Shown here piece after piece: positions 725 through 27,262 of a DNA stretch of 35,025 nt. The notes beneath the pieces were generated by a model. That model was given only the letters and a program-made list of their open reading frames with translations. It was not told where the DNA came from and searched no databases. How positions within the stretch are numbered: the first letter of the stretch is position 1; each line of letters begins with the position of its first letter. The position numbers and the translations under genes are program-made. The stretch spans positions 1 through 35,025 of the forward strand of contig JABXJX010000010.1 of the NCBI GenBank assembly GCA_013375375.1, written 5' to 3'. The stretch is from Desulfobacterales bacterium. Lineage in GTDB: Bacteria > Desulfobacterota > Desulfobacteria > Desulfobacterales > C00003060.

Positions 725-1721
725 CTTCACCCCCCTTCCACAATACGATCTTACCCTCGTCTTCAAGCTGCCTGGCGACCCTTAGAACTTTCTGCTGGGC
801 CTCTTCCACCTCGGAGAGCCTCACAGGGCCCATGTCCTCCATGTCTTCGCGAAGCATGTCTCCTGCCCTTTCTGAGAGGTTGTTGAAGATCTTTTCCTTA
901 ACTCCTTCGGATGCAGTCCTGAGGCCCACGGCCAGATCCGCTCTATCCACATGTTTTAAGATCTCTCGAAAAGCCCGATCATCCACTTTGACGAGATCTT
1001 CAAAAACAAACATCAGTTGTCTGATCTCCTCGGCCACCTGCTCATCATCTTCTTCAAGCCTCGACATTATCTGTTCTTCAGTAGTCCTATCTATCTCGTT
1101 CAATATGTTGGCAAGGGTCGTCGTACCCTCAACGTCTCTGGTTCCGGAATCGCCCAGGCCCCTGACCTCTTTTTGAAGCACATGGTCCACTTCCTGGATA
1201 ACTTCCGTGGGGACCTGTTCCATTTTTACAATACGCATTGCAACATCTGCCTGTATTTGCTCCGGCAATCCTGAAAGGATCGCGGCAGCCCTGTTGGATT
1301 CCAAGTATGCCAGTATCAATGCTATCGTCTGGGGATGTTCCCCTTTGATTATGTTAACTACCAGATTGGCATCAATACTTTCAAAATAACTGAACGGGTC
1401 GCCCTGCCTATTCTTCTCAAGCTCCCTATAAACGGCCCTGGCCTTGTCTTTGCCCAATGAGCCTTCCACTTTCCTTAAAAAAGTTTCATATTCCACCATG
1501 AATTGACCGGTGGATTCACTTTTGTTAAGAAACTCTTCCATGATCCGCCTCAGGTCTTCCTCGGGGACATACTTGATTTCCGACATTTTAGCGACAAGTC
1601 TGCTGATCTCATCCGGCTCAAGATTCTTAAAAACCTCTGAGGTATACTCTTCCCCCATCATCATGAGAAATATTGCGGCCTTCTCCGCCCCCGTCATTTT
1701 CCTGTCCCTTACATCCGGCAT
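711..1721 (-). CDS. fliG: Flagellar motor switch protein FliG
   Basis: FliG is the rotor protein of the C-ring; it contacts FliF on the membrane side and MotA through its C-terminal domain. The 336-residue product has the usual family length. The N-terminus contains TGAEKAAIFLMMMGEE, the middle domain contains GEHPQTIALILAYL (the EHPQ motif that contacts FliM), and the C-terminal domain contains FVFEDLVKVDDRAFREIL, where the charged torque-generating helix lies. It ends in a basic/hydrophobic tail. The start ATG shares one base with the fliF TAA stop, so translation is probably coupled. No anomaly is visible. Confidence 0.98.
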   Translation of the reverse strand: MPDVRDRKMTGAEKAAIFLMMMGEEYTSEVFKNLEPDEISRLVAKMSEIKYVPEEDLRRIMEEFLNKSESTGQFMVEYETFLRKVEGSLGKDKARAVYRELEKNRQGDPFSYFESIDANLVVNIIKGEHPQTIALILAYLESNRAAAILSGLPEQIQADVAMRIVKMEQVPTEVIQEVDHVLQKEVRGLGDSGTRDVEGTTTLANILNEIDRTTEEQIMSRLEEDDEQVAEEIRQLMFVFEDLVKVDDRAFREILKHVDRADLAVGLRTASEGVKEKIFNNLSERAGDMLREDMEDMGPVRLSEVEEAQQKVLRVARQLEDEGKIVLWKGGEDVLV

Positions 1722-3289
1722 TATCTCTCTCCCAACCAGCCTCTGAGCACCTGTTGCGTCTTATCAACATCTTTTTTTGCTACCATCATCGTCTTATCCC
1801 GTATGGTTTTTGCTTCGGATTCCGGCAGCGAGGCAGACTCAAGTCCCTCAGTCGTTGCCGGTAAAGTCCTCGAGATGCCGGTAGTTGTAAAGACCCCTTT
1901 GGCCGATCTTAAAAGCGGACGCACCACAAAAAGAAATACCACAATCCCTAATAAAAGATTAATAGCCGGCTTGATGTACGGCTTGATGTATTGCATCCAG
2001 CCCGTTTCCACCACTTCTTCTGCCTGAACTTCTTCCGTGATTGTGGAAACAGAAAGAGGGAAACAGCTCATCTGGACCTGATCCTCGCGGTCCGCATTAT
2101 AACCCATAGCCCTTTTGACAATATTTTCAAATTCCCCCAATTCCTTTGAGCTTCTGGGAATATATTTTTTTGTCTTTGAGCCATCTTCATTGGTAACTAC
2201 GTCATAGGTGCCGTCAACCACTGCGGCCACCGAAAGTCGCGTCACTGTGCCCGATGGTTTTATGATCCGTCTTGTGACTCTGTTGATTTCATAATTGATA
2301 ACCTCATCTTCTTTTTGAGACCTTGTACTTGGTTCAGCTCCTTGTGATGGAATCTCGGCCTGACCGGTATTCAAGGCCGGCGTCGTTGGATTTTTCCCGC
2401 CTTTTGCGGACGACTCTGCTTTGCGTTGTCTGCTTCTGACCACAGTGTTATCAGGATCGTATTTTTCCTCACTAAGATCAATTTGATCAAAATCGATCTC
2501 AGCACTCACGCGGACAATGGCTTTACCTGTGCCTACAATACCCTCCAGCATACTCTGAACACGTCCCGCAATCTTTTTCTCAACCTGACGTTGATAATCG
2601 AGCTTGTTGCTGGTAAAAAGGGCCGTCTGATCCCCCTGGTGAGGCCCTTTGAACAACACCTTTCCGGTAGTATCAACCACCGTAACTTGCTCCGGCGCCA
2701 GCCCTTCAACGGCGCTTGCTACAATATGGACGATTCCCGCCACTTTGTCCTGAGATAGACTTGATCTTAGTTTCAACAAAACCGAAGCTGTGGGCGGTTT
2801 GGTATCTTCGATAAATAAGGAGTCCTTCGGCAACACAATAAGGATCCTTGCGTGGTCCACCTCCCTAAATTCACCTATAGTCCGGGACAATTCCCCTTGA
2901 AGGGCTCTTTGATAGTTGAGCCTCTGGACGAACTCGGTGGTACTAAAATTTGTCTTGTCAAAGATTTCAAACCCGACGTTACCCCCCCTCGGGAGCCTTT
3001 CACCAGCCAGTACAAGTCTCGTTTCATGGACCTTATCTGCCGGAACCATGATGAGCGAACCGCCGCCTTCAAGCCTATATGGAACGTGCTGTTCCTTTAG
3101 CTTGGAGATTATGCTGGATGCATCCTCGTCGGCAAGATTACTGTACAGGACCTGATAATTAATCCGATTGACCCAAGAAATCATCAATGCAAACCCCGCC
3201 ACCACTAACCCCAGCATAACGACCATGGAGATTTTCTTTGAAAGCGGCATGACCCTGAGCGCTTCACTAAACTGTTCAGTTGTTTTCAT
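1721..3289 (-). CDS. fliF: Flagellar MS-ring protein FliF
   Basis: FliF forms the inner-membrane MS ring on which rotor and export gate assemble. The 522-residue protein has a first transmembrane segment at about residues 20-42 and a ring-building region with LYSNLADEDASSII, then NFSTTEFVQRLNYQRALQGELSRTI and VDHARILIVLPKDSLF, all hallmark FliF stretches. A second transmembrane segment (INLLLGIVVFLFVVRPLL) lies near residue 445, followed by a cytosolic tail that binds FliG. The start gives the normal short N-terminal extension. The base context is odd: only a weak GTGAG-type ribosome site precedes the ATG, and repetitive intergenic sequence abuts it directly. Confidence 0.97.
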   Translation of the reverse strand: MKTTEQFSEALRVMPLSKKISMVVMLGLVVAGFALMISWVNRINYQVLYSNLADEDASSIISKLKEQHVPYRLEGGGSLIMVPADKVHETRLVLAGERLPRGGNVGFEIFDKTNFSTTEFVQRLNYQRALQGELSRTIGEFREVDHARILIVLPKDSLFIEDTKPPTASVLLKLRSSLSQDKVAGIVHIVASAVEGLAPEQVTVVDTTGKVLFKGPHQGDQTALFTSNKLDYQRQVEKKIAGRVQSMLEGIVGTGKAIVRVSAEIDFDQIDLSEEKYDPDNTVVRSRQRKAESSAKGGKNPTTPALNTGQAEIPSQGAEPSTRSQKEDEVINYEINRVTRRIIKPSGTVTRLSVAAVVDGTYDVVTNEDGSKTKKYIPRSSKELGEFENIVKRAMGYNADREDQVQMSCFPLSVSTITEEVQAEEVVETGWMQYIKPYIKPAINLLLGIVVFLFVVRPLLRSAKGVFTTTGISRTLPATTEGLESASLPESEAKTIRDKTMMVAKKDVDKTQQVLRGWLGER

Positions 3290-3295
3290 AGTAAC

Positions 3296-3422
3296 TCACT
3301 GTTCGTTGTTTGGTTACTGGTCATTCGTTATTCGAAAATCGTTTTCTGTTTACACGATCTCTGATTCACGATTTAGCGCAAAGCTTCACTCCGTGTCCGA
3401 TTACACGAATCACGAATCAAAA
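3296..3422. repeat. Stuttering short-word tract between fliF and fliE
   Basis: This gap holds reiterated near-identical words: gttcgttg, ggtcattcgttattcg, then gattcacgatt and acacgaatcacgaatca. The stretch at 3372-3399 is almost identical to 8709-8737, near the beginning of the TPR gene. It is non-coding and sits inside a co-directional flagellar operon. It touches the fliF start codon, where a good ribosome site would be expected. Confidence 0.6.
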
Positions 3423-3578
3423 CTGATGCTGTCGTAAAAAGTCTGAAAATAGACGGCAAAGTAAAAAGCTCCAGATGCAAGGCGCGCGAATTTTGAGGAA
3501 TGAGGTCCGCCTCAGGCGGATCGCAATGACGAAAGATGAAGCGCAACGCCGCAGATGGACTTTTTATGAAGCCGTCAG
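3423..3578. mobile_element. MITE-like inverted-repeat element overlapping the fliE stop codon
   Basis: A 156-bp element with imperfect terminal inverted repeats. The left arm (3423-3444) and the reverse complement of the right arm (3557-3578) agree at about 16 of 22 positions, including TAAAAAGTC. An internal hairpin (ggtccgcc/ggcggatc) lies near 3504-3522. There is no open frame and no transposase. The right arm contains the fliE TGA stop. This looks like a non-autonomous repeat, but no second copy exists in the window, so the assignment rests on structure alone. Confidence 0.55.
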
Positions 3579-3865
3579 AATTGCATTCGCATGATTTCCC
3601 TATATGCATCCATAACTTTGTTTCGAACCTGAAGCAGAAGGCGGAGAGAAATATCGGCCTTTTGAACGGCCATCATGGTCTCATGGACGCCGGCCTCTCC
3701 TTTTAAAAGCTGTTCAATAGATTGATCGGCCTGAATTTCCATATCATTCACCTGTTTTATGGCCTGTTTTATGACATCGCCAAAGTTTTTTTGGCCGGCA
3801 CGGGTCTTCTTGTCGCCCTGATACAGGCCGGGCTGTATCTTGTGTTGAATCTTCAAATCACTCAT
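3575..3865 (-). CDS. fliE: Flagellar hook-basal body protein FliE
   Basis: FliE links the MS ring and export gate to the proximal rod. The 96-residue product has the expected length and ends with the family signature: ADISLRLLLQVRNKVMDAYREIMRMQF. A GGAG ribosome site (TAGGAGAAAAA) precedes the ATG, 8 bp after the flgC stop. The order flgB-flgC-fliE is the standard rod operon. The stop codon lies inside the terminal repeat of the neighbouring MITE-like element, yet the C-terminus is of normal length, so the gene appears intact. Confidence 0.96.
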   Translation of the reverse strand: MSDLKIQHKIQPGLYQGDKKTRAGQKNFGDVIKQAIKQVNDMEIQADQSIEQLLKGEAGVHETMMAVQKADISLRLLLQVRNKVMDAYREIMRMQF

Positions 3866-3873
3866 TTTTTCTC

Positions 3874-4305
3874 CTACCTTCCAATCTCAAGCGCCTTCAG
3901 GAGCATTGCCTTGGTTGAGCCAATGGCGGTCACGTTTGCTTCATAGGACCTTCTGGCAAGCATCATATCGGTCATTTCGGTTATGACATCTATATTTGGC
4001 ATATAGACATAGCCGTCTTTGTCTGCATCCGGATGGCCCGGGCTATACATCCTTCTGAAAGAAGTCGGGTCTTCCACAATTCCGGCCACTGTGACCCCGC
4101 ACAGCGACTCGGTTTCCGATCTTAAGATCGATTCAAAGTCCTCAACCGGCTTGGGCTCTAGTACGACTATCTGCCTTCTGTACGGCCCCCCTGTCGCGGT
4201 GCGGGTCGTATACATATTAGCAAGATTGGTCGAAATAACATTCATACGCATTCTCTGTACGGTTAAGCCCATTGTACTGACACGAAGTGCATTAAAGAAA
4301 TCCAT
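3874..4305 (-). CDS. flgC: Flagellar proximal rod protein FlgC
   Basis: FlgC is a proximal rod subunit exported through the flagellar apparatus. The 143-residue protein begins with an N-terminal flagellar rod helix (ALRVSTMGLTVQRMRMNVISTNLANM) carrying the SxNLAN rod motif. It contains the FlgC motif YSPGHPDADKDGYVYMPNID, and ends with the C-terminal helix MMLARRSYEANVTAIGSTKAMLLKALEIG. It starts two bases after the flgB stop. Everything is typical. Confidence 0.97.
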   Translation of the reverse strand: MDFFNALRVSTMGLTVQRMRMNVISTNLANMYTTRTATGGPYRRQIVVLEPKPVEDFESILRSETESLCGVTVAGIVEDPTSFRRMYSPGHPDADKDGYVYMPNIDVITEMTDMMLARRSYEANVTAIGSTKAMLLKALEIGR

Positions 4306-4306
4306 A

Positions 4307-4687
4307 TTATCGCCCTCCTTCGGATATGGCGAATTTTAATTTAGACAATTTCCTTAAAAGGACTTCTACGCTTGCTCTGTGCCGCAGATTGTTTTCCGCA
4401 AGCTTCGACATCTCTTTATCAATATCGACCGAGCCTGTGCCGTTTGAGGATGGCTCTGTATAAAAAACCTTGGAACCAAAATGGGCTGGGTTGGTTCGAG
4501 AAAGATCGACCGAGGTCCCCTCCAGGGCATCCTTCAAGGCACTCTTAAAATCAATGTCTTTCGCCTTGTAACCCGGGGTGTCCAGGTTGGCAATATTGCT
4601 GGTTATGAGCCCGTGCCGCTTATTGGTAATGTCAAGAGACCTCTCAATGGCGTGAACTGTTTTTCCAAATAAAGACTTAACCGGCAT
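4307..4687 (-). CDS. flgB: Flagellar proximal rod protein FlgB
   Basis: FlgB is a proximal rod subunit. I choose the ATG at 4687 because AAGGA lies 8 bases upstream and the resulting N-terminus (MPVKSLFGKTVHAIERSLDI) is standard. A longer frame reaches 4726, but it would begin inside the promoter leader. The protein is 126 residues with the rod motif HGLITSNIANLDTPGYKAKDIDF and a C-terminal helix (EMSKLAENNLRHRASVEVLLRKLSKL). It is the first gene of flgB-flgC-fliE-fliF-fliG-fliH, driven by the sigma-54 promoter just upstream. Confidence 0.96.
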   Translation of the reverse strand: MPVKSLFGKTVHAIERSLDITNKRHGLITSNIANLDTPGYKAKDIDFKSALKDALEGTSVDLSRTNPAHFGSKVFYTEPSSNGTGSVDIDKEMSKLAENNLRHRASVEVLLRKLSKLKFAISEGGR

Positions 4688-4720
4688 GATGATTCCTTTC
4701 GTTTTTATCTTTATCTTCTG

Positions 4721-4738
4721 TAGCAATTTCCGTGCCTT
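4721..4738 (-). promoter_or_regulatory. Sigma-54 (-24/-12) promoter of the flgBC-fliEFGH operon
   Basis: Read on the minus strand, the site is GGCACG, four bases, then TTGCT. GG and GC are exactly 12 bases apart, as the RpoN consensus requires. Predicted start is near 4711, leaving a leader of about 24 bases before flgB. The -24 box abuts the TAA of the upstream activator gene, whose product is a candidate activator of this promoter. Confidence 0.85.
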
Positions 4739-4740
4739 TG

Positions 4741-6099
4741 TTACAATCCTCCTGAAGCGGACATCTTTTCTCGGTATTCATTCAACTTATTCCTTAACGT
4801 CCGAACACTAATGCCAAGGATCTCAGCAGCATGGGTTCTGTTACCATTCGTCTGGTTAAGGGTATTTAAGATCATCCTTTCTTCCATCTCTTTTAGTGAA
4901 CCAGCCGGTACGGATGAGAATTCCGACACCCCGGCAGCTTTGGGATTCTCCCCTATAAAAAGGTCATCTTTGTCGATCAGTTTTCCCCGACATAGGAGTA
5001 CGGCCCGTTCCATAATATTTTCCAGCTCTCTTACATTCCCGGGCCACTGCATGCGCATGAGGATACGCGCGGCATCCTTTGTCAAGCCCTTGACGTTGCG
5101 ACCGTCAATCTTGTTGTATTTCTTAATAAAATAATCAGCTAACAGTAGTATGTCATCCTCTCTCTCCCGCAGGGGCGGTAGTCTGATCGGTATGACGTTC
5201 AGACGATAATAAAGGTCTGCTCGAAACTTTTCTGCCTGTACGGCCGCTTCAATATCCTGGTTAGTAGTTGAAATCACACGCGTATCTATGGGAACAGGAT
5301 GCCGGCCGCCAACCCTGTCAATCTCTGACTCCTGCAATACCCGAAGCAGCTTGGCCTGGAGATGGATGTTCATTTCGCTTATTTCGTCTAAGAGCATGGT
5401 GCCGCCCTGGGCCAATTCAAACTTTCCGAGTTTTTTTGAGACCGCCCCGGTAAAAGACCCCTTTTCGTGTCCAAAAAGTTCGCTTTCCAGAAGGCCTTCC
5501 GGAAGTGCTGCACAGTTTACAGCCACAAAAGTTTTATTACGTCTGGAACTTTGGTTGTGAATAAAACGAGAAAATAGTTCTTTTCCTGTACCGCTTTCTC
5601 CCTGAATCAACACAGATGCCTTGCTGTCGGCTACAGTCTTTACCAAATTCAACTGATCAAACATCTGACGATTCCTGGTAATAATGGAGGCTGCCTCTGG
5701 TTTTGTATCTTTTCCGGGGGATGAAGAAGATATCCTGCTGTGAATGGCCTTTGTAGCAACAGTCTTCATGGCTTTTGGCGAAAAAGGCTTCAAAATAAAG
5801 TCAAAGGCCCCAAGCTTCATGGCCTCAATGGCGGATTCTACTGTCCCGTATCCTGAGATGACGATGAAAGGGATATCGATCTCTTTTTCATTAAGCTTTC
5901 TTAATAATCCTAAGCCATCCAGTTCCGGCATTCTAAGGTCGGAGATAATAAGGTCGTAATTGTGTCCTTTGAGTTCTTCTAAGGCACTGACACCGTTGCC
6001 GACGGCTGTAACTCTATATCCCTCGCCCTTTAAGACCTCGCACAAAGAGGCCCTTTCTTGATCTATATCTTCTATGAGTAAGATGTTACCTTTATGCAC
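4741..6099 (-). CDS. NtrC-family sigma-54 activator, FlrC/FlgR-like (REC-AAA+-Fis HTH)
   Basis: This response regulator probably activates sigma-54 flagellar promoters. Residues about 4-118 form a receiver with acidic IEDIDQE, phosphoacceptor in IISDLRMPELDG and the KP switch. Residues about 140-375 form an AAA+ domain with Walker A GESGTGKE, Walker B LLDEI and the R-finger region. The C-terminus carries a Fis-type helix-turn-helix (NGNRTHAAEILGISVRTLRNKL). The sigma-54 contact loop reads GSFTGA rather than the usual GAFTGA. It starts 25 bp after the TPR gene, probably co-transcribed, and lies directly upstream of flgB, as FlrC/FlgR homologues often do. Cognate kinase candidate: the gene at 13404-14216. 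Confidence 0.9.
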   Translation of the reverse strand: MHKGNILLIEDIDQERASLCEVLKGEGYRVTAVGNGVSALEELKGHNYDLIISDLRMPELDGLGLLRKLNEKEIDIPFIVISGYGTVESAIEAMKLGAFDFILKPFSPKAMKTVATKAIHSRISSSSPGKDTKPEAASIITRNRQMFDQLNLVKTVADSKASVLIQGESGTGKELFSRFIHNQSSRRNKTFVAVNCAALPEGLLESELFGHEKGSFTGAVSKKLGKFELAQGGTMLLDEISEMNIHLQAKLLRVLQESEIDRVGGRHPVPIDTRVISTTNQDIEAAVQAEKFRADLYYRLNVIPIRLPPLREREDDILLLADYFIKKYNKIDGRNVKGLTKDAARILMRMQWPGNVRELENIMERAVLLCRGKLIDKDDLFIGENPKAAGVSEFSSVPAGSLKEMEERMILNTLNQTNGNRTHAAEILGISVRTLRNKLNEYREKMSASGGL

Positions 6100-12613: not shown

Positions 12614-13201
12614 TCAGTATTCTCTTACGATCAGCAGAAAAGCATCCGGTAACTGCTTCAGGGAGTCGATTGAAATCTTAACCCTCTTTTTCCCCATCGT
12701 CTCCGTCTTCAAGCAAGCTTTATAATGTGGGCGCCCCTGACCAGGATGCTCCCAGCGCTTTTGAGCCAAATCGACCAATCTTGCTTGAAAATTACTATCT
12801 ACGACTTCGGCAACATCCCGTCCGATCAGATCAGCCTGGGAATATCCCAGCAAATTTGCAAAGGCCTCGTTGGCGCCTATGATAGCCTTCTTGCGACATA
12901 TAATGGCGGGATCTTCTATCTCCTCAACGATTAGAAGCTTTTCCAGGGCAGAAGCATGCCGGCGTGCCGAGGATGAGCCCTCACCCTCGCTCATTAGCTT
13001 GAGTTTATATTTGCGTAATGATTCAGGAAGGGGCAGGTTATGACCATCCAGTATTCGGAGCACTTCATCGGCAGGGATCTTATAATTTCTTCCTACCCTG
13101 ATACCCTTTATCTTTCCTCGCTCGATCCATCGCCTGACGGTGGTATGAAATATACCCAGAAATCGGGCTAACTCCGGCGTGGAATAGAGTGTTTTCTCCA
13201 T
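12614..13201 (-). CDS. Excisionase-like HTH protein with PAS domain
   Basis: A small regulator combining an excisionase/MerR-type DNA-binding helix-turn-helix (residues about 4-55: STPELARFLGIFHTTVRRWI, then KIKGIRVGRNYKIPADEVLRIL) with a C-terminal PAS domain at about 85-190 (IICRKKAIIGANEAFANLLG, then SQADLIGRDVAEVVD). I choose ATG 13201 because AGGAG sits 7 bases upstream; the ATG at 13207 would leave only one base. It is directly preceded by an excellent sigma-28 promoter. It may modulate late flagellar or chemotaxis transcription, but that is inference. No catalytic output domain is present. Confidence 0.82.
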   Translation of the reverse strand: MEKTLYSTPELARFLGIFHTTVRRWIERGKIKGIRVGRNYKIPADEVLRILDGHNLPLPESLRKYKLKLMSEGEGSSSARRHASALEKLLIVEEIEDPAIICRKKAIIGANEAFANLLGYSQADLIGRDVAEVVDSNFQARLVDLAQKRWEHPGQGRPHYKACLKTETMGKKRVKISIDSLKQLPDAFLLIVREY

Positions 13202-13242
13202 TGCCATGCTCCTAAAGACTCAAAATATCCTGTTGCTCTTAT

Positions 13243-13269
13243 ATATCGGCAGAATAGTCCAAATCTTTA
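13243..13269 (-). promoter_or_regulatory. Sigma-28 (FliA) promoter of HTH-PAS and cheR operon
   Basis: Minus strand: TAAA, 15 bases, GCCGATAT. This matches the FliA consensus (TAAA-N15-GCCGATAA) at all but one position, with ideal spacing. Predicted start about 13236, leaving a leader of about 35 bases. It places HTH-PAS and cheR in the late (class III) set. Confidence 0.85.
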
Positions 13270-22880: not shown

Positions 22881-22912
22881 GGCAGACTAAAACACAGCAA
22901 AATACCTGCCAA
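22881..22912 (-). promoter_or_regulatory. Sigma-54 promoter of fliD (32-bp repeat, copy 1)
   Basis: Minus strand: TTGGCAGG, four bases, TTGCT with exact GG to GC spacing; one change from consensus. The full 32 bp is identical to 27231-27262, upstream of the c-di-GMP riboswitch. Predicted start near 22885 gives a 120-base leader. Confidence 0.85.
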
Positions 22913-23101
22913 ACAGGTGGTCCTGACAAAAGAAACATCCCTCACCACTGAGGCGCGAAGTACGCAGAGAGGAAGCGCTTTTTGTTTGTCGGGAGATTGC
23001 GACAAACAAAAAGGTTCCTCCGCCCTGTCAGTCATTGCCAAGCTGGTTTGGATTGCCTGGATTGCCAATGAAGGACCATTTAGCTTTTTTGTAAATATAA
23101 T
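22913..23101. repeat. Repeat-rich gap with a perfect 14-bp hairpin
   Basis: Between the fliD promoter and the abiE promoter. A perfect inverted repeat (CTTTTTGTTTGTCG at 22978-22991 and its complement at 23000-23013, loop of 8) is flanked by outer AGGAA/TTCCT. Other parts (cgcgaagtacgcagagagg and ggattgcctggattgcca) are stuttering words. No gene is evident. Confidence 0.5.
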
Positions 23102-23183
23102 TTGACGTTCTCCAATTTTTATAGTATTATATCTAATAACTGCGGGGTAGATATTATATTTCGATAATTGGAGGGACTCCAAT
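23102..23183 (+). promoter_or_regulatory. Promoter and operator-like repeats of the AbiE pair
   Basis: A -35 box TTGACG (23102-23107) and -10 box TATTAT (23125-23130) are 17 bases apart. The word CTCCAAT occurs in the spacer (23110-23116), in inverted form at 23167-23173, and again at 23177-23183. The last two form a 7-bp hairpin (ATTGGAG-gga-CTCCAAT) that covers the ribosome site and the first two bases of the ATG. AbiEi antitoxins are known to repress their own promoters by binding inverted repeats. Confidence 0.75.
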
Positions 23184-24024
23184 GAATGTAAGAAATAATC
23201 AAAAGCATACTCGATTAGGTGTAGAGCTGGTGAGAAAGTTATCCGAAGAGTGGAAGCGTATATTTACCGTACAGGACGCACGAAAGTCTGCATCTTCCTG
23301 TGGAATAGCAAATGGCTATGTAGTTGAATCTTTACACCATCTCTCAAATACTGGTTGGATAGTTCGTCTCAAGAAGGGTCTCTATATTATCTCCTCTTCT
23401 TTTCCGGGTATGACTCCTATCCATGAGTTTGAGATTGCTATGGCTTTGGTTCATCCGGCTGCCATAAGTCATTGGTCTGCTATGCATTTTCATGGTATGA
23501 CAGAACAAATACCGCAAAGAGTATATGTTACGACTACGCAAGCAATTGTTGTATCAAGGTCTGCCAAGAGACTAAAGAAGAGTCAAAGAAGTTCCAGTCG
23601 AGAAATAAATGGTGTCATTTACGAGTTTGTTAGAATAAAGCCTGAAAGATTCTTTGGCGCTAAGGACTATTGGGTTGGGGAGGCTAAGGTAACAATAACG
23701 AACCCTGAAAGAACACTCATAGATGGACTTGTTGCTCCTAAGTATTTTGGTGATTGGCCGGAAGTTTATTCTGCGTTTGAATCCCAATTCTCTAAGCTCG
23801 ATTTGGATAAGATGGTTGACTATTCCATACGGCTTGGTGCTGCTGTTGCTAAGAGATTAGGTTGGATATTCGAAAAGCTGGGAGTAGCGGATTCGATATT
23901 ACAGAGGCTTGAGGATGTTCCTATTAAGGGTTACCGTGTTCTTGACCCCACCGGTCCCAGAAAGGGGCCTTGCAACAAAAGATGGATGATTCAGGAAAAC
24001 TTTCCGGGGAAGGTGGTGAGATGA
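23182..24024 (+). CDS. AbiEi-type antitoxin / transcriptional repressor
   Basis: AbiEi proteins are the antitoxins of type IV-like AbiE systems and repress their own operon. The 280-residue product has an N-terminal winged-helix part (RIFTVQDARKSASSCGIANGYV, then HLSNTGWIVRLKKGLYII) and the conserved middle HEFEIAMALVHPAAISHWSAMHFHGMTEQIP, followed by ITNPERTLIDGLVAPKYFGD. The gene is on the plus strand, more AT-rich than its flagellar neighbours, with GGAGG before ATG 23182. Its stop overlaps the toxin start by ATGA. It was probably acquired by transfer. Confidence 0.92.
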   Translation: MNVRNNQKHTRLGVELVRKLSEEWKRIFTVQDARKSASSCGIANGYVVESLHHLSNTGWIVRLKKGLYIISSSFPGMTPIHEFEIAMALVHPAAISHWSAMHFHGMTEQIPQRVYVTTTQAIVVSRSAKRLKKSQRSSSREINGVIYEFVRIKPERFFGAKDYWVGEAKVTITNPERTLIDGLVAPKYFGDWPEVYSAFESQFSKLDLDKMVDYSIRLGAAVAKRLGWIFEKLGVADSILQRLEDVPIKGYRVLDPTGPRKGPCNKRWMIQENFPGKVVR

Positions 24025-24896
24025 AACCCTTAAGAAAAAGGCTCGAGGAAGCAAGGGAAGACACAGGACTACCATGGGAAATAATTGAGTGTGATTATAT
24101 TCTTTCCTGGGTATTGGCCGGCATCGGAGTTAATGAGAGATTACAAAATGGACTTATTCTCAAAGGTGGAACAGCCTTGAAGAAATGCTACTTTGGCGAG
24201 TACAGGTTTTCAGAAGACCTTGATTTTACTGCTAAGAAGAGCACCCAAAGGAAAAATGAACTTGAGGAAGAAATACGGCGCTCTTGCAGGTTAGCCACTG
24301 AATTAGCCCAGAAATTCTCGCCCCTGGAACTAAAGGCAGAGAGATATACGGAAAAGGAGCCTCATCCCGGTGATCAGGAAGCCTTTATCGTAAGAGGCAA
24401 ACTTCCCTGGCATCGCCAATTTCTGATAAGGGTGATGATTGAGATTACTGTGGATGAGCCGGTAAAGATCAAACCGGAGAGAAGGCAAATAATTCACGGT
24501 TACGGAGAAAAGATTTTTCAGGAAATCCTTGTGTATTCAATTGAAGAGATCGTAGCCGAGAAAATGCGGGCCATATTGCAACACCTCCAAAAACTGGAAG
24601 GCCGTGGCTGGAGTCGATCACGAGCAAGAGATTATTATGACCTCTGGAAAATATTGAATCATTATCCAGGTCCGTTGAGGATGGAGATTTTACCAAACCT
24701 CTTTTTAGAAAAGTGTAAAGTTCGGAAGGTTGATTTCAGCGGACCAGAGAAATTTTTTGATAAAGTTTTGTTGGATTATGTGGCTAAGACTTGGGAGCAA
24801 TGGTTAGGCCCGTTAGTCCTTGAGTTGCCACCATTTGAGCCGGTAATAGATAATCTTAAACAGAAACTTTTTGATTTATTCAAACATGCTGAATGA
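24021..24896 (+). CDS. AbiEii-type nucleotidyltransferase toxin
   Basis: AbiEii toxins are nucleotidyltransferases of the MNT superfamily that inhibit growth. The 291-residue protein, from ATG 24021 (GGTGGTGAG just upstream), has GLILKGGTALKKCYFGEYRFSEDLDF, matching motif I GGTxLxK...SxDxDF, and later EIVAEKMRAILQHL and RSRARDYYDLWKIL, the DxxDLW region. An alternative start at 23970 would overlap the antitoxin by 55 bp and has no ribosome site. The gene ends 61 bp from the oppositely oriented SBBP gene, with no terminator visible. Confidence 0.92.
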   Translation: MKPLRKRLEEAREDTGLPWEIIECDYILSWVLAGIGVNERLQNGLILKGGTALKKCYFGEYRFSEDLDFTAKKSTQRKNELEEEIRRSCRLATELAQKFSPLELKAERYTEKEPHPGDQEAFIVRGKLPWHRQFLIRVMIEITVDEPVKIKPERRQIIHGYGEKIFQEILVYSIEEIVAEKMRAILQHLQKLEGRGWSRSRARDYYDLWKILNHYPGPLRMEILPNLFLEKCKVRKVDFSGPEKFFDKVLLDYVAKTWEQWLGPLVLELPPFEPVIDNLKQKLFDLFKHAE

Positions 24897-24956
24897 ATGA
24901 CCCCGCCGCTATACCCCCTCCCACTAAATCCTGTACATCCTGTCAAAAAAGTCCCG

Positions 24957-26987
24957 CTACAGCAATGTTTGTAAATAGGCCACCAATATATCAACCAAAG
25001 AGGTTATTTCTTGCTGGATTTCCGGGTCCGTGACCCAATCATTATTGGGGTTCCCACCAACAGAACCATCTGCCTTGGCTCTGATATCATTCAGTAATTT
25101 ATCTATCGCATCCTGATAGTCGCCTGCATCTATCAAGGCAATCGCATCAGCAAGTTTCTCGGACAGGGCGTTTTGCCGTTGAGCGGCATTGTTTTTAAAC
25201 ACATCAGCCGGCAAATCCTGGATATAATCATCGATTGACCCTATAGCCTCTTGAGGGCTCGCCACAGTGATGGTTGTTGTGCTTTCTCCCACTCCGCCAT
25301 CATCGTCCGTCACTGTCAAAGTTACAGTATAGGATCCGGGTGCTGAATATGCATATGTCATTGTGCATGTGCCGGTGGCATCCGGCTGCTCATTTTCTTC
25401 TTCGAGAGTACCGGCATCACCTGACCCATCACCAAAATCCCAATAAGACTCATGGGTATCCAACCATCCTGGATCCGTGAAACTGCCATGGAATGTCAGT
25501 TCGTGATACGGCAGTATGAATTCCGGCTCAGGCTGTTCAACAGAATCTATACTGACAGTTGGCGGAAGATTGAAAATATTAACAGTTGTCATGTCTGTAT
25601 CTGTAAGCCCGCCATTGTCTGTCACTCTTAAGGTAACACTGCCTGTATAGTCATCACCCCATGTGTGGGTGATAGTCGGTGACGCAGAGCTCGCATCATA
25701 TATTCCATCATCATCAAAATCCCATTCATACAATACAATCGTGCCGTCAGGGTCTGTCGAACCTGAAGCGTCAAGGGTAACCGCAGCGCCTTCGTCACCA
25801 GCATAAGGTCCGCCAGCATCAGCTATGGGAGGCTGATTCTGCGACACTTGACCAGAGAGTTTGGCAATGAACACATCGCTATATCCTGCAGAGGTCTGAC
25901 CCGGAAAGATACCGTAAGTCTGCCCTGTGACATAGGCGTTTCCTGAGAAGTCCAAGGCTATTCCATAACCGCTGACAACGCTGCTCGATCCGAACTGTCT
26001 GAGCCAAAGCTGGTTACCTGCGCCATCGTACTTGGCAACGAACGCATCGTAACTTCCTGCAGAGGTCTGACCCGGCAAGGTGCTTGCAGTATATCCCGTC
26101 ATATAGGCATTTCCTGAGGAGTCCAAGGCTATGCTATGAGCTATTTCATGACTGCTCGATCCGAACTGTCTGAGCCAAAGCTGATTACCTGTGCCATCGT
26201 ACTTGGCAACGTACACATCATAACCTCCTTGATTGTAGGTCTGCCCCGGGAAAGTACCGTATGTTCCCCCCGACACATAGATGTTTCCTGATGAGTCCAA
26301 GGCCATCGCAGAACTATAGTCAAGATGGCTCGTCCCGAATTGCTTAAGCCAGATCTGGTTCCCTGCGCCATCGTACTTGGCAATGAACGCATCGTCATCT
26401 CCTGCAGAGGTCTGACCCGGGAAGGTGCCGCCACACGTCCCCCCCGACACATAGACGTTTCCTGATGAGTCCAAGGCTATTCTACGAGCGAAGTCCCCAT
26501 GGCTCGTCCCGAACTGCCTGAGCCAGATCTGGTTCCCTGCGCCATCGTATTTGGCAATGAACGCATCGTAATATCCTGCAGAGGTCTGACCCGGAAAGAT
26601 ACCGTAAGTATTCCCCGCCACATAGACGTTTCCTGATGAGTCCAAGGCCATTTCATAGACGAGGTCCCAACTGCTCGTTCCAAACTGCCTGAGCCAGATC
26701 TGGTTCCCTGCGCCATCGTATTTGGCAATGAATACATCGCGATATCCTGCAGAGGTCTGACCCGGAAAGATACCGTACGTATACCCTGTCACATAGACGT
26801 TTCCTGATGAGTCCGGGGCTATTTCATAGGCGGAGTCATGACCGCCTGTCCCAAACTGCCTGACCCACTCGATTTCCGGAGCTTGTGCCTCTGCAGATAC
26901 GGCAGTCGATACAACTAACGCTATCGTGGTTGCACATATCAACGCCGCTATTGCAAATGCTATACTTTTTATTTTTATCCTTTTCAT
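24957..26987 (-). CDS. Exported SBBP-repeat and PKD-domain protein under riboswitch control
   Basis: A predicted secreted or surface protein of 676 residues from ATG 26987, chosen because AAGGGGGG lies a few bases upstream and a clear signal peptide follows (MKRIKIKSIAFAIAALICA, cleavage near SAEAQA). Residues about 60-380 hold six SBBP repeats of 52-54 residues with cores such as ALDSSGNVYVSG, FPGQTSAG and FIAKYDGAGNQIWLRQFG, probably a beta-propeller. Residues about 382-575 hold two PKD domains (YEWDFDDDGIYD, SYWDFGDGSGD). The tail (about 577-676) is acidic and helical (GDYQDAIDKLLNDIRAKADG) and unrecognised. It probably works in adhesion or matrix; inference only. A sigma-54 promoter and c-di-GMP-I riboswitch control it. 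Confidence 0.9.
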   Translation of the reverse strand: MKRIKIKSIAFAIAALICATTIALVVSTAVSAEAQAPEIEWVRQFGTGGHDSAYEIAPDSSGNVYVTGYTYGIFPGQTSAGYRDVFIAKYDGAGNQIWLRQFGTSSWDLVYEMALDSSGNVYVAGNTYGIFPGQTSAGYYDAFIAKYDGAGNQIWLRQFGTSHGDFARRIALDSSGNVYVSGGTCGGTFPGQTSAGDDDAFIAKYDGAGNQIWLKQFGTSHLDYSSAMALDSSGNIYVSGGTYGTFPGQTYNQGGYDVYVAKYDGTGNQLWLRQFGSSSHEIAHSIALDSSGNAYMTGYTASTLPGQTSAGSYDAFVAKYDGAGNQLWLRQFGSSSVVSGYGIALDFSGNAYVTGQTYGIFPGQTSAGYSDVFIAKLSGQVSQNQPPIADAGGPYAGDEGAAVTLDASGSTDPDGTIVLYEWDFDDDGIYDASSASPTITHTWGDDYTGSVTLRVTDNGGLTDTDMTTVNIFNLPPTVSIDSVEQPEPEFILPYHELTFHGSFTDPGWLDTHESYWDFGDGSGDAGTLEEENEQPDATGTCTMTYAYSAPGSYTVTLTVTDDDGGVGESTTTITVASPQEAIGSIDDYIQDLPADVFKNNAAQRQNALSEKLADAIALIDAGDYQDAIDKLLNDIRAKADGSVGGNPNNDWVTDPEIQQEITSLVDILVAYLQTLL
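25860..26860 (-). repeat. Six tandem DNA repeats of about 160 bp coding SBBP units
   Basis: Repeats are near-identical at DNA level, with the phrase tcgtacttggcaacgaacgc and variants recurring about every 155-162 bp. Homogeneity suggests recent duplication or gene conversion, and copy number could vary by slippage. Confidence 0.85.
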
Positions 26988-27004
26988 AGCACCCCCCTTG
27001 CAAC

Positions 27005-27039
27005 AAAAAAGCCCACCCTTCACAAAGAAGAGTGGGCTT
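27005..27039 (-). terminator. Intrinsic terminator of the riboswitch expression platform
   Basis: A 13-bp stem with one wobble (AAGCCCACTCTTC at 27039-27027, against GAAGGGTGGGCTT at 27021-27009), a 5-base loop, and a run of T residues after it. The 5' arm contains CCCACTCTT, complementary to the aptamer at 27112-27120. It lies 18 bases upstream of the ATG of the SBBP gene. Confidence 0.9.
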
Positions 27040-27047
27040 AATACACT

Positions 27048-27150
27048 AAACGTTTCGGCAATTCAGCCGCCATATCCCGGTAGCTCGGGATGTAGGCCTG
27101 TAACTTTGCGTCCCACTCTTTCGAGAGGCTTGCCTTTATCGAACTTCGAG
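27048..27150 (-). ncRNA. Cyclic di-GMP-I (GEMM-I) riboswitch aptamer
   Basis: Read on the minus strand it shows in order: AAAGGCAAGCC, a GAAA tetraloop hairpin (CTCTC-GAAA-GAG), GGGACGCAAAG, GGCCTA, a second hairpin (ATCCCG with CGGGAT), then GGCGGCTGAATTGCCGA. This order is the GEMM-I pattern. Aligning with the known Vc2 aptamer, the ligand-contact residues G20, A47 and C92 fall on bases 27133, 27106 and 27058 and are conserved. G rather than A at position 20 predicts c-di-GMP rather than cGAMP preference. It is followed directly by a terminator and the SBBP/PKD gene. Confidence 0.92.
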
Positions 27151-27230
27151 GTTTAAAAGAGCAATCGAAGCCGTACTTCTTCATTTATCGTGAAAGCCAG
27201 CCCAAATGTTTAGTCTTTTTGTGGCAGAGT

Positions 27231-27262
27231 GGCAGACTAAAACACAGCAAAATACCTGCCAA
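27231..27262 (-). promoter_or_regulatory. Sigma-54 promoter of the riboswitch-SBBP transcript (32-bp repeat, copy 2)
   Basis: Identical over 32 bp to 22881-22912. Minus strand TTGGCAGG, four bases, TTGCT. Predicted start near 27235, leaving about 85 bases before the aptamer and a leader of about 248 bases before the ATG. Confidence 0.85.

Follow-up and report, generated by a model that had tools for sequence, protein, structure and literature searches.

The window analyzed here, a stretch of 35,025 nucleotides, carries a flagellar neighborhood with the genes for flagellin, FliD, FliS, FlaG, FliF, FliG and CheR, together with those of PilZ and HD-domain proteins. Between flagellin and fliD, a minus-strand gene encodes a protein with six SBBP beta-propeller repeats, two PKD domains and, as judged by eye, a signal peptide. 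The Pfam matches and the signal-like N terminus bear out the exported SBBP/PKD product proposed in the initial annotation. The coordinates of the gene and its leader are given in Table 1.

Table 1. Features of the SBBP/PKD gene and its leader in the window.
Feature	Position	Strand	Remarks
Exported SBBP/PKD protein, 676 aa	24957..26987	-	Pfam SBBP 9.5e-52, PKD_4 5.8e-30
Shine-Dalgarno AAGGGGGG, outside the terminator	26992..26999	-	from sequence
Intrinsic terminator hairpin	27009..27039	-	13 pairs; full-length predicted pairing 0.98; T-run 27010-27005
Switching strand CCCACUCUU, terminator 5' arm	27028..27036	-	pairs with P2 3' strand or terminator 3' arm
c-di-GMP-I (GEMM-I) aptamer	27053..27143	-	RF03167 65.5 bits, RF01051 76 bits
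Predicted antiterminator strand AAGAGUGGG	27112..27120	-	perfect 9-nt complement of 27036-27028; partner kept in 33/35 relatives
Sigma28 (FliA)-type promoter TAAACATT-N12-CACGATAA	27185..27212	-	score 22; homology with paralogous leader L001 starts at its -35
32-bp element TTGGCAGGTATTTTGCTGTGTTTTAGTCTGCC with sigma54-like site	27231..27262	-	exact second copy 22912-22881, upstream of fliD

The gene lies in a segment of about 4.35 kb (22881-27262) that is bounded by exact 32-bp direct repeats and looks inserted. Between the repeat copies, the riboswitch and the SBBP/PKD gene occupy the minus strand and an AbiEi/AbiEii type IV toxin-antitoxin pair the plus strand (23182-24896). In two relatives (L233 and L235), the segment is absent and fliD directly follows flagellin with its own sigma28-type site, accompanied in L233 by a sigma54-like site. 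In another relative (L234 of genome G009, 1244-5050), a different PKD protein of 1268 aa fills the gap, without a c-di-GMP-I aptamer, and the gap is a possible hotspot for surface-protein cargo. We found no riboswitch at the flagellin-fliD site of the relatives, and no ortholog of the SBBP/PKD gene among the genus relatives, where only its domains were matched. Because fliD comes right after flagellin in relatives and the gap accepts inserts, the position of this gene in a flagellar cluster says little. Thus, the flagellar cluster of the initial annotation stands as a description of the neighborhood but is weak evidence on function; the promoter of the gene says more than its position.

The leader carries a class-I c-di-GMP aptamer with conserved ligand contacts

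Performing covariance-model searches, we found the GEMM-I aptamer that had been claimed on the minus strand as the sole above-threshold Rfam match in the window. It exceeded both the gathering score of RF03167, c-di-GMP-I-GGC (59 bits; E 1.7e-13), and the cut-off of the parent model RF01051 (35 bits). PyrR, Thr leader and other Rfam families gave chance matches below threshold. By alignment to Vc2, and in Vc2 numbering, the predicted ligand contacts are G20 (27134), A47 (27107) and C92 (27058). In the alignment of 75 genus aptamers, A47 and C92 are invariant (75/75) and position 20 is G in 72, so that the conserved contacts of the initial annotation were found as well.

The ligand is probably c-di-GMP. 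Sensing of 3',3'-cGAMP is the least probable of the alternatives that we weighed, even though Geobacter GEMM-I RNAs, first named c-di-GMP switches, bind that nucleotide (PMC6456294; PMC9262584) and three aptamers of the genus behind sigma28-type promoters (L009, L101 and L097) have A20. In the literature, cGAMP binding goes with a G20A change (PMC6274999); the aptamer of the window has a G at this position, along with G21 and C46, and lacks the A20 of the GEMM-Ib (cGAMP) subclass.

A sigma28-type promoter motif precedes the aptamer

Upstream of the aptamer lies a candidate sigma28-type site that scores 22 of 27 (p 0.02 against shuffles), from which transcription would begin at about 27178. Its -10, CACGATAA, is weaker than those of flagellin (29062) and fliD (22870) in the same window (TCCGATAA and TCCGATAG), which share the motif. 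The motif was searched as TAAAGTTT-N11/12-GCCGATAA, with a background of about 0.03 per 150 nt. A sigma70 promoter, sought on the minus strand of the leader region, gave no site. The genome encodes FliA (277.7 bits) and nine GGDEF proteins over the cut-off.

The 32-bp element, present in just two copies genome-wide, holds the sigma54-like site TGGCAG-N5-TTGCT at 27261-27246 on the minus strand; sigma54-like matches in the window number three against 0.23 expected. Elsewhere in the window, another sigma28-type site, TAAAGATT-N11-GCCGATAT (13243-13269, minus strand, score 24), lies 35 nt before the gene for an HTH+PAS protein (12614-13207).

The terminator arm is complementary to the P2 strand of the aptamer

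The terminator, seven of whose pairs are G-C, has a 5-nt loop followed by TTTTTT. It begins 11 nt past the modelled aptamer segment and lies wholly downstream. The strong terminator noted before the ATG is therefore present, and the distance needs correction from 18 to 17 nt between T-run and ATG (26987). The predicted antiterminator strand takes in the two final A of the GAAA tetraloop, the P2 3' strand and the G that follows. Its exact complementarity to the terminator 5' arm over 9 nt, already seen in the initial annotation, exceeds that of dinucleotide shuffles (p 0.01) and, as described below, recurs across the genus.

We modelled the folding of the minus-strand RNA for a series of transcripts of increasing length, all beginning at the predicted start, with energies computed without ligand or tertiary contacts. 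As long as the terminator 5' arm has yet to be transcribed, P2 pairs with a predicted probability of 0.75-0.78. With the arm out to 27030, the value for P2 is down to 0.02 and that for the antiterminator has climbed to 0.96; the latter stays at 0.94-0.96 once the arm has emerged. Upon completion of the 3' arm, the terminator wins (0.98). At the decision length (27022), the ensemble energy is -47.8 kcal/mol with the antiterminator and -38.1 kcal/mol in the aptamer fold; given this advantage of about 10 kcal/mol for the antiterminator, the ligand would have to act kinetically, holding P2 and the docked tetraloop before the arm invades. In the predicted fold, the antiterminator helix runs on into the conserved J2/3 strand ACGCAAAG and would therefore destroy the ligand pocket.

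In these models, the terminator is compatible with the ligand-bound aptamer, which would leave it free to form as had been suggested, and is excluded by an antiterminator that destroys the aptamer. Since the antiterminator forms first and the terminator second, the folding is best read as that of an OFF switch. At equilibrium, the full-length leader RNA prefers the terminator even without ligand; hence, the switch must be kinetic, and it could be leaky or mostly off.

The pairing and the promoter recur across the genus

The genome of the window (2.18 Mb, 197 contigs) holds 11 c-di-GMP-I aptamers, and at least one is present in 21 of 22 genus genomes. Using a purpose-built covariance model, we collected 75 matches from the genus and 83 from the wider order. 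The comparison covered 35 genus leaders that combine a sigma28-type promoter with a downstream terminator; they share ancestry and are therefore not independent counts. In 33 of these, the terminator 5' arm finds its best match in the tetraloop/P2 3' strand. The pairing score reaches at least 20 in 26 of the 35 (74%), as compared with 5.7% among 805 control pairings, for which 23 unrelated terminators from the same loci and the window were used. The arm-P2 pairing comprises 9-12 pairs in most sigma28-linked leaders. Both the comparison and the folding by transcript length thus support the P2 strand as the antiterminator partner. In the wider order, some groups have a P2-based antiterminator and others seem to pair with J1/2 (AAAGGC), so that we claim the P2 design for the genus only.

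The complementarity might be an incidental by-product, if the terminators derive by copying from one common stem, GCCCAYYCTTT. The arms are indeed very alike across leaders, and permuting them among leaders gives p 0.02 only. Against this, unrelated terminators of the same loci lack the pairing at the rates given above. Many leaders, moreover, have the arm CCCAUUCUUUCG; its last bases fall in the terminator loop, CUUUCG, which is dispensable for termination, and these too pair with GAAAG of the tetraloop and P2. In the two leaders of L007, a U-A pair is replaced by C-G through changes in each of the strands. We consider a by-product quite improbable.

Promoter and terminator layout go together. 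With class thresholds set after the data were seen, a terminator finder that misses some cases and two leaders assigned by hand, a sigma28 promoter lies upstream of 34 of the 38 downstream-terminator leaders (the other four fall below the threshold), none of the nine leaders whose terminator overlaps the aptamer and 5 of the 25 with no terminator detected (Fisher 5e-7 and 8e-11). In overlapping cases such as L002, L047, L081 and L092, the 3' part of the aptamer itself serves as the terminator 5' arm, an ON layout by anatomy as known from pilM (PMC9262584).

This bears on the possibility that the window leader is itself a transcriptional ON switch, in which ligand binding would keep the terminator from forming; Bc2 and the cGAMP riboswitches of Geobacter work in this way. 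Class-I ON switches are established in Bc2 (PMC4933901) and pilM, and the same genome holds one by anatomy (L002). The window terminator, however, lies clear of the aptamer, its arm pairs with P2 rather than with the P3 or P1 3' strands, and the predicted ligand-bound fold is compatible with it. An ON switch is accordingly unlikely here.

A leader that does not switch, or is nearly always terminated, is also unlikely, if marginally less so than an ON switch; its RNA would act as a terminated small RNA or as a c-di-GMP sink, the role proposed for Bdellovibrio merRNA (PMC3627812). The full-length equilibrium, which yields 0.98 for the terminator with or without the antiterminator, fits this, as do three leaders of the wider order (L127, L160 and L143) with sigma28 site, aptamer, terminator and a gene only some 300 nt further on. 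The conservation of the antiterminator pairing argues against it, as does a good Shine-Dalgarno with an ATG just past the terminator; in L011, L034, L101, L097 and L086, folding still favors the antiterminator at full length.

Further leader types were observed. In six leaders from other families of the order (L127, L160, L143, L156, L124 and L117), the aptamer and terminator lie about 235-320 nt upstream of a conserved gene beginning MRKKISF, behind which most have a SecA-like gene (names assigned by eye). A sigma28-type promoter is present in four of these (L127, L160, L143 and L156), and some have a sigma70-like TTGACA after the terminator; they possibly make a stand-alone terminated aptamer RNA. 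Another six leaders (L023, L024, L025, L031, L037 and L083) have no clear terminator and no sigma28 site and precede secreted FN3/Ig-type proteins; in this apparently translational type, a CACCTCC...GGAGGTG pairing would cover the Shine-Dalgarno.

Leaders of opposite layout precede overlapping sets of targets

The sigma28-class leaders precede FliD-like genes (L008 and L112), FlgE/FlgG-like hook or rod genes (L050 and L046), multihaem cytochromes, and secreted proteins, namely a collagen-like and two propeller proteins. The targets of the ON class include PEP-CTERM proteins (L026 and L084) and again cytochromes. Multihaem CxxCH cytochromes thus stand behind OFF-type sigma28 leaders (L007 with two aptamers, L011, L102 and L104) and ON-type leaders (L002 and L047), and in genome G000, L007 and L002 share one contig (C70).

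At the base of P2, 18 of the 75 genus aptamers carry C21-G46 in place of G21-C46. All aptamers in ON layout (L002, L047, L081, L092, L084, L027, L026 and L040) have this swap; none of those in downstream-terminator sigma28 leaders does. The C21-G46 aptamers may be a subtype tied to sign and promoter, and possibly to another ligand.

Leader L001 is a near-identical paralogue of the one in the window. The two are homologous from the -35 box through the terminator but no further, and L001 precedes a different secreted propeller protein with 31% identity in part to the window protein. The pair looks like a duplicated regulatory cassette.

Discussion

We propose, with a probability of roughly three in four, that the window leader is a sigma28-started c-di-GMP OFF switch with a P2-strand antiterminator that gives motile-phase expression of the SBBP/PKD protein. 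A flagellar promoter (sigma28, perhaps also sigma54) would start the RNA, with the class-I aptamer as its first module. In the absence of ligand, the early-made terminator 5' arm would invade P2 and pair with the tetraloop/P2 3' strand into the J2/3 strand of the binding pocket; the terminator 3' arm would then find no partner in time, and RNA polymerase would read on into the gene. Bound c-di-GMP would lock P2 and the docked tetraloop, free the 5' arm and let the terminator form, turning the gene off. With FliA active and c-di-GMP low, the exported propeller/PKD protein would thus be made as a surface or secreted protein of the motile phase.

The initial annotation had predicted an OFF switch with expression at low c-di-GMP, and the genus comparison and folding models favor this. 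Of its two explanations, a "reversed logic" peculiar to the SBBP/PKD gene is not needed, since the leader is one of a motility-linked group of OFF leaders that also stand before flagellar genes, and its near-identical copy precedes another secreted propeller protein; given targets such as FliD-like, hook or rod, cytochrome and secreted proteins, the logic would simply be that of motility-phase expression. The alternative, a motility-phase surface protein, gains from the sigma28-type promoter, which would tie the leader to the motile state.

C-di-GMP-I OFF control of flagellar genes and ON control of surface proteins are already known. Cd1, before the C. difficile flgB operon, is likewise a class-I OFF switch that works through a transcription terminator on motility genes (PMC6366702; PMC9262584). 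However, its antiterminator is described with the aptamer-closing strand, and it precedes one early flagellar operon with sigD, whereas the genus leaders use the tetraloop/P2 3' strand and stand before many separate genes, each with a sigma28-type promoter. The Geobacter GEMM-Ib ON riboswitches, such as pilM, share the aptamer superfamily, terminator control and cytochrome targets (PMC6456294) but differ in sign, ligand and the overlap of terminator and aptamer; the ON-type leaders L002 and L047 resemble them more. In Bdellovibrio, a FliA-driven swimming program likewise coexists with a c-di-GMP riboswitch RNA, merRNA; unlike the window leader, this RNA lacks a gene downstream, and FliA control is not indicated for it in that work (PMC3627812). 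Bc2, before a collagen adhesion protein of B. thuringiensis, is also a class-I terminator switch with a surface-protein target; in contrast to our prediction, it is an ON switch, and the adhesin is made at high c-di-GMP (PMC4933901). In the searchable literature, with most subscription journals outside the search, we found no description of P2/tetraloop antitermination with sigma28 promoters as a repeated cassette.

More tentatively, at somewhat under even odds, we suggest that a portable sigma28 and c-di-GMP-I OFF cassette (FliA AND NOT c-di-GMP) has been copied before unrelated genes throughout the genus, among them those of secreted propeller proteins and multihaem cytochromes, jointly with a cytochrome exchange of opposite sign. 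Because paralogous cytochromes stand under ON-type class-I leaders with C21-G46 and without sigma28, swimming and attached cells would exchange their extracellular cytochromes.

If this is true, a simple two-input device would operate at many loci, the flagellar sigma factor starting the RNA and c-di-GMP deciding its completion. The direction of c-di-GMP control, which a review holds is to be settled case by case (PMC6366702), would become predictable from sequence, namely from the aptamer strand that the terminator arm matches and the preceding promoter. Motility would then be linked to the choice of extracellular multihaem cytochromes.
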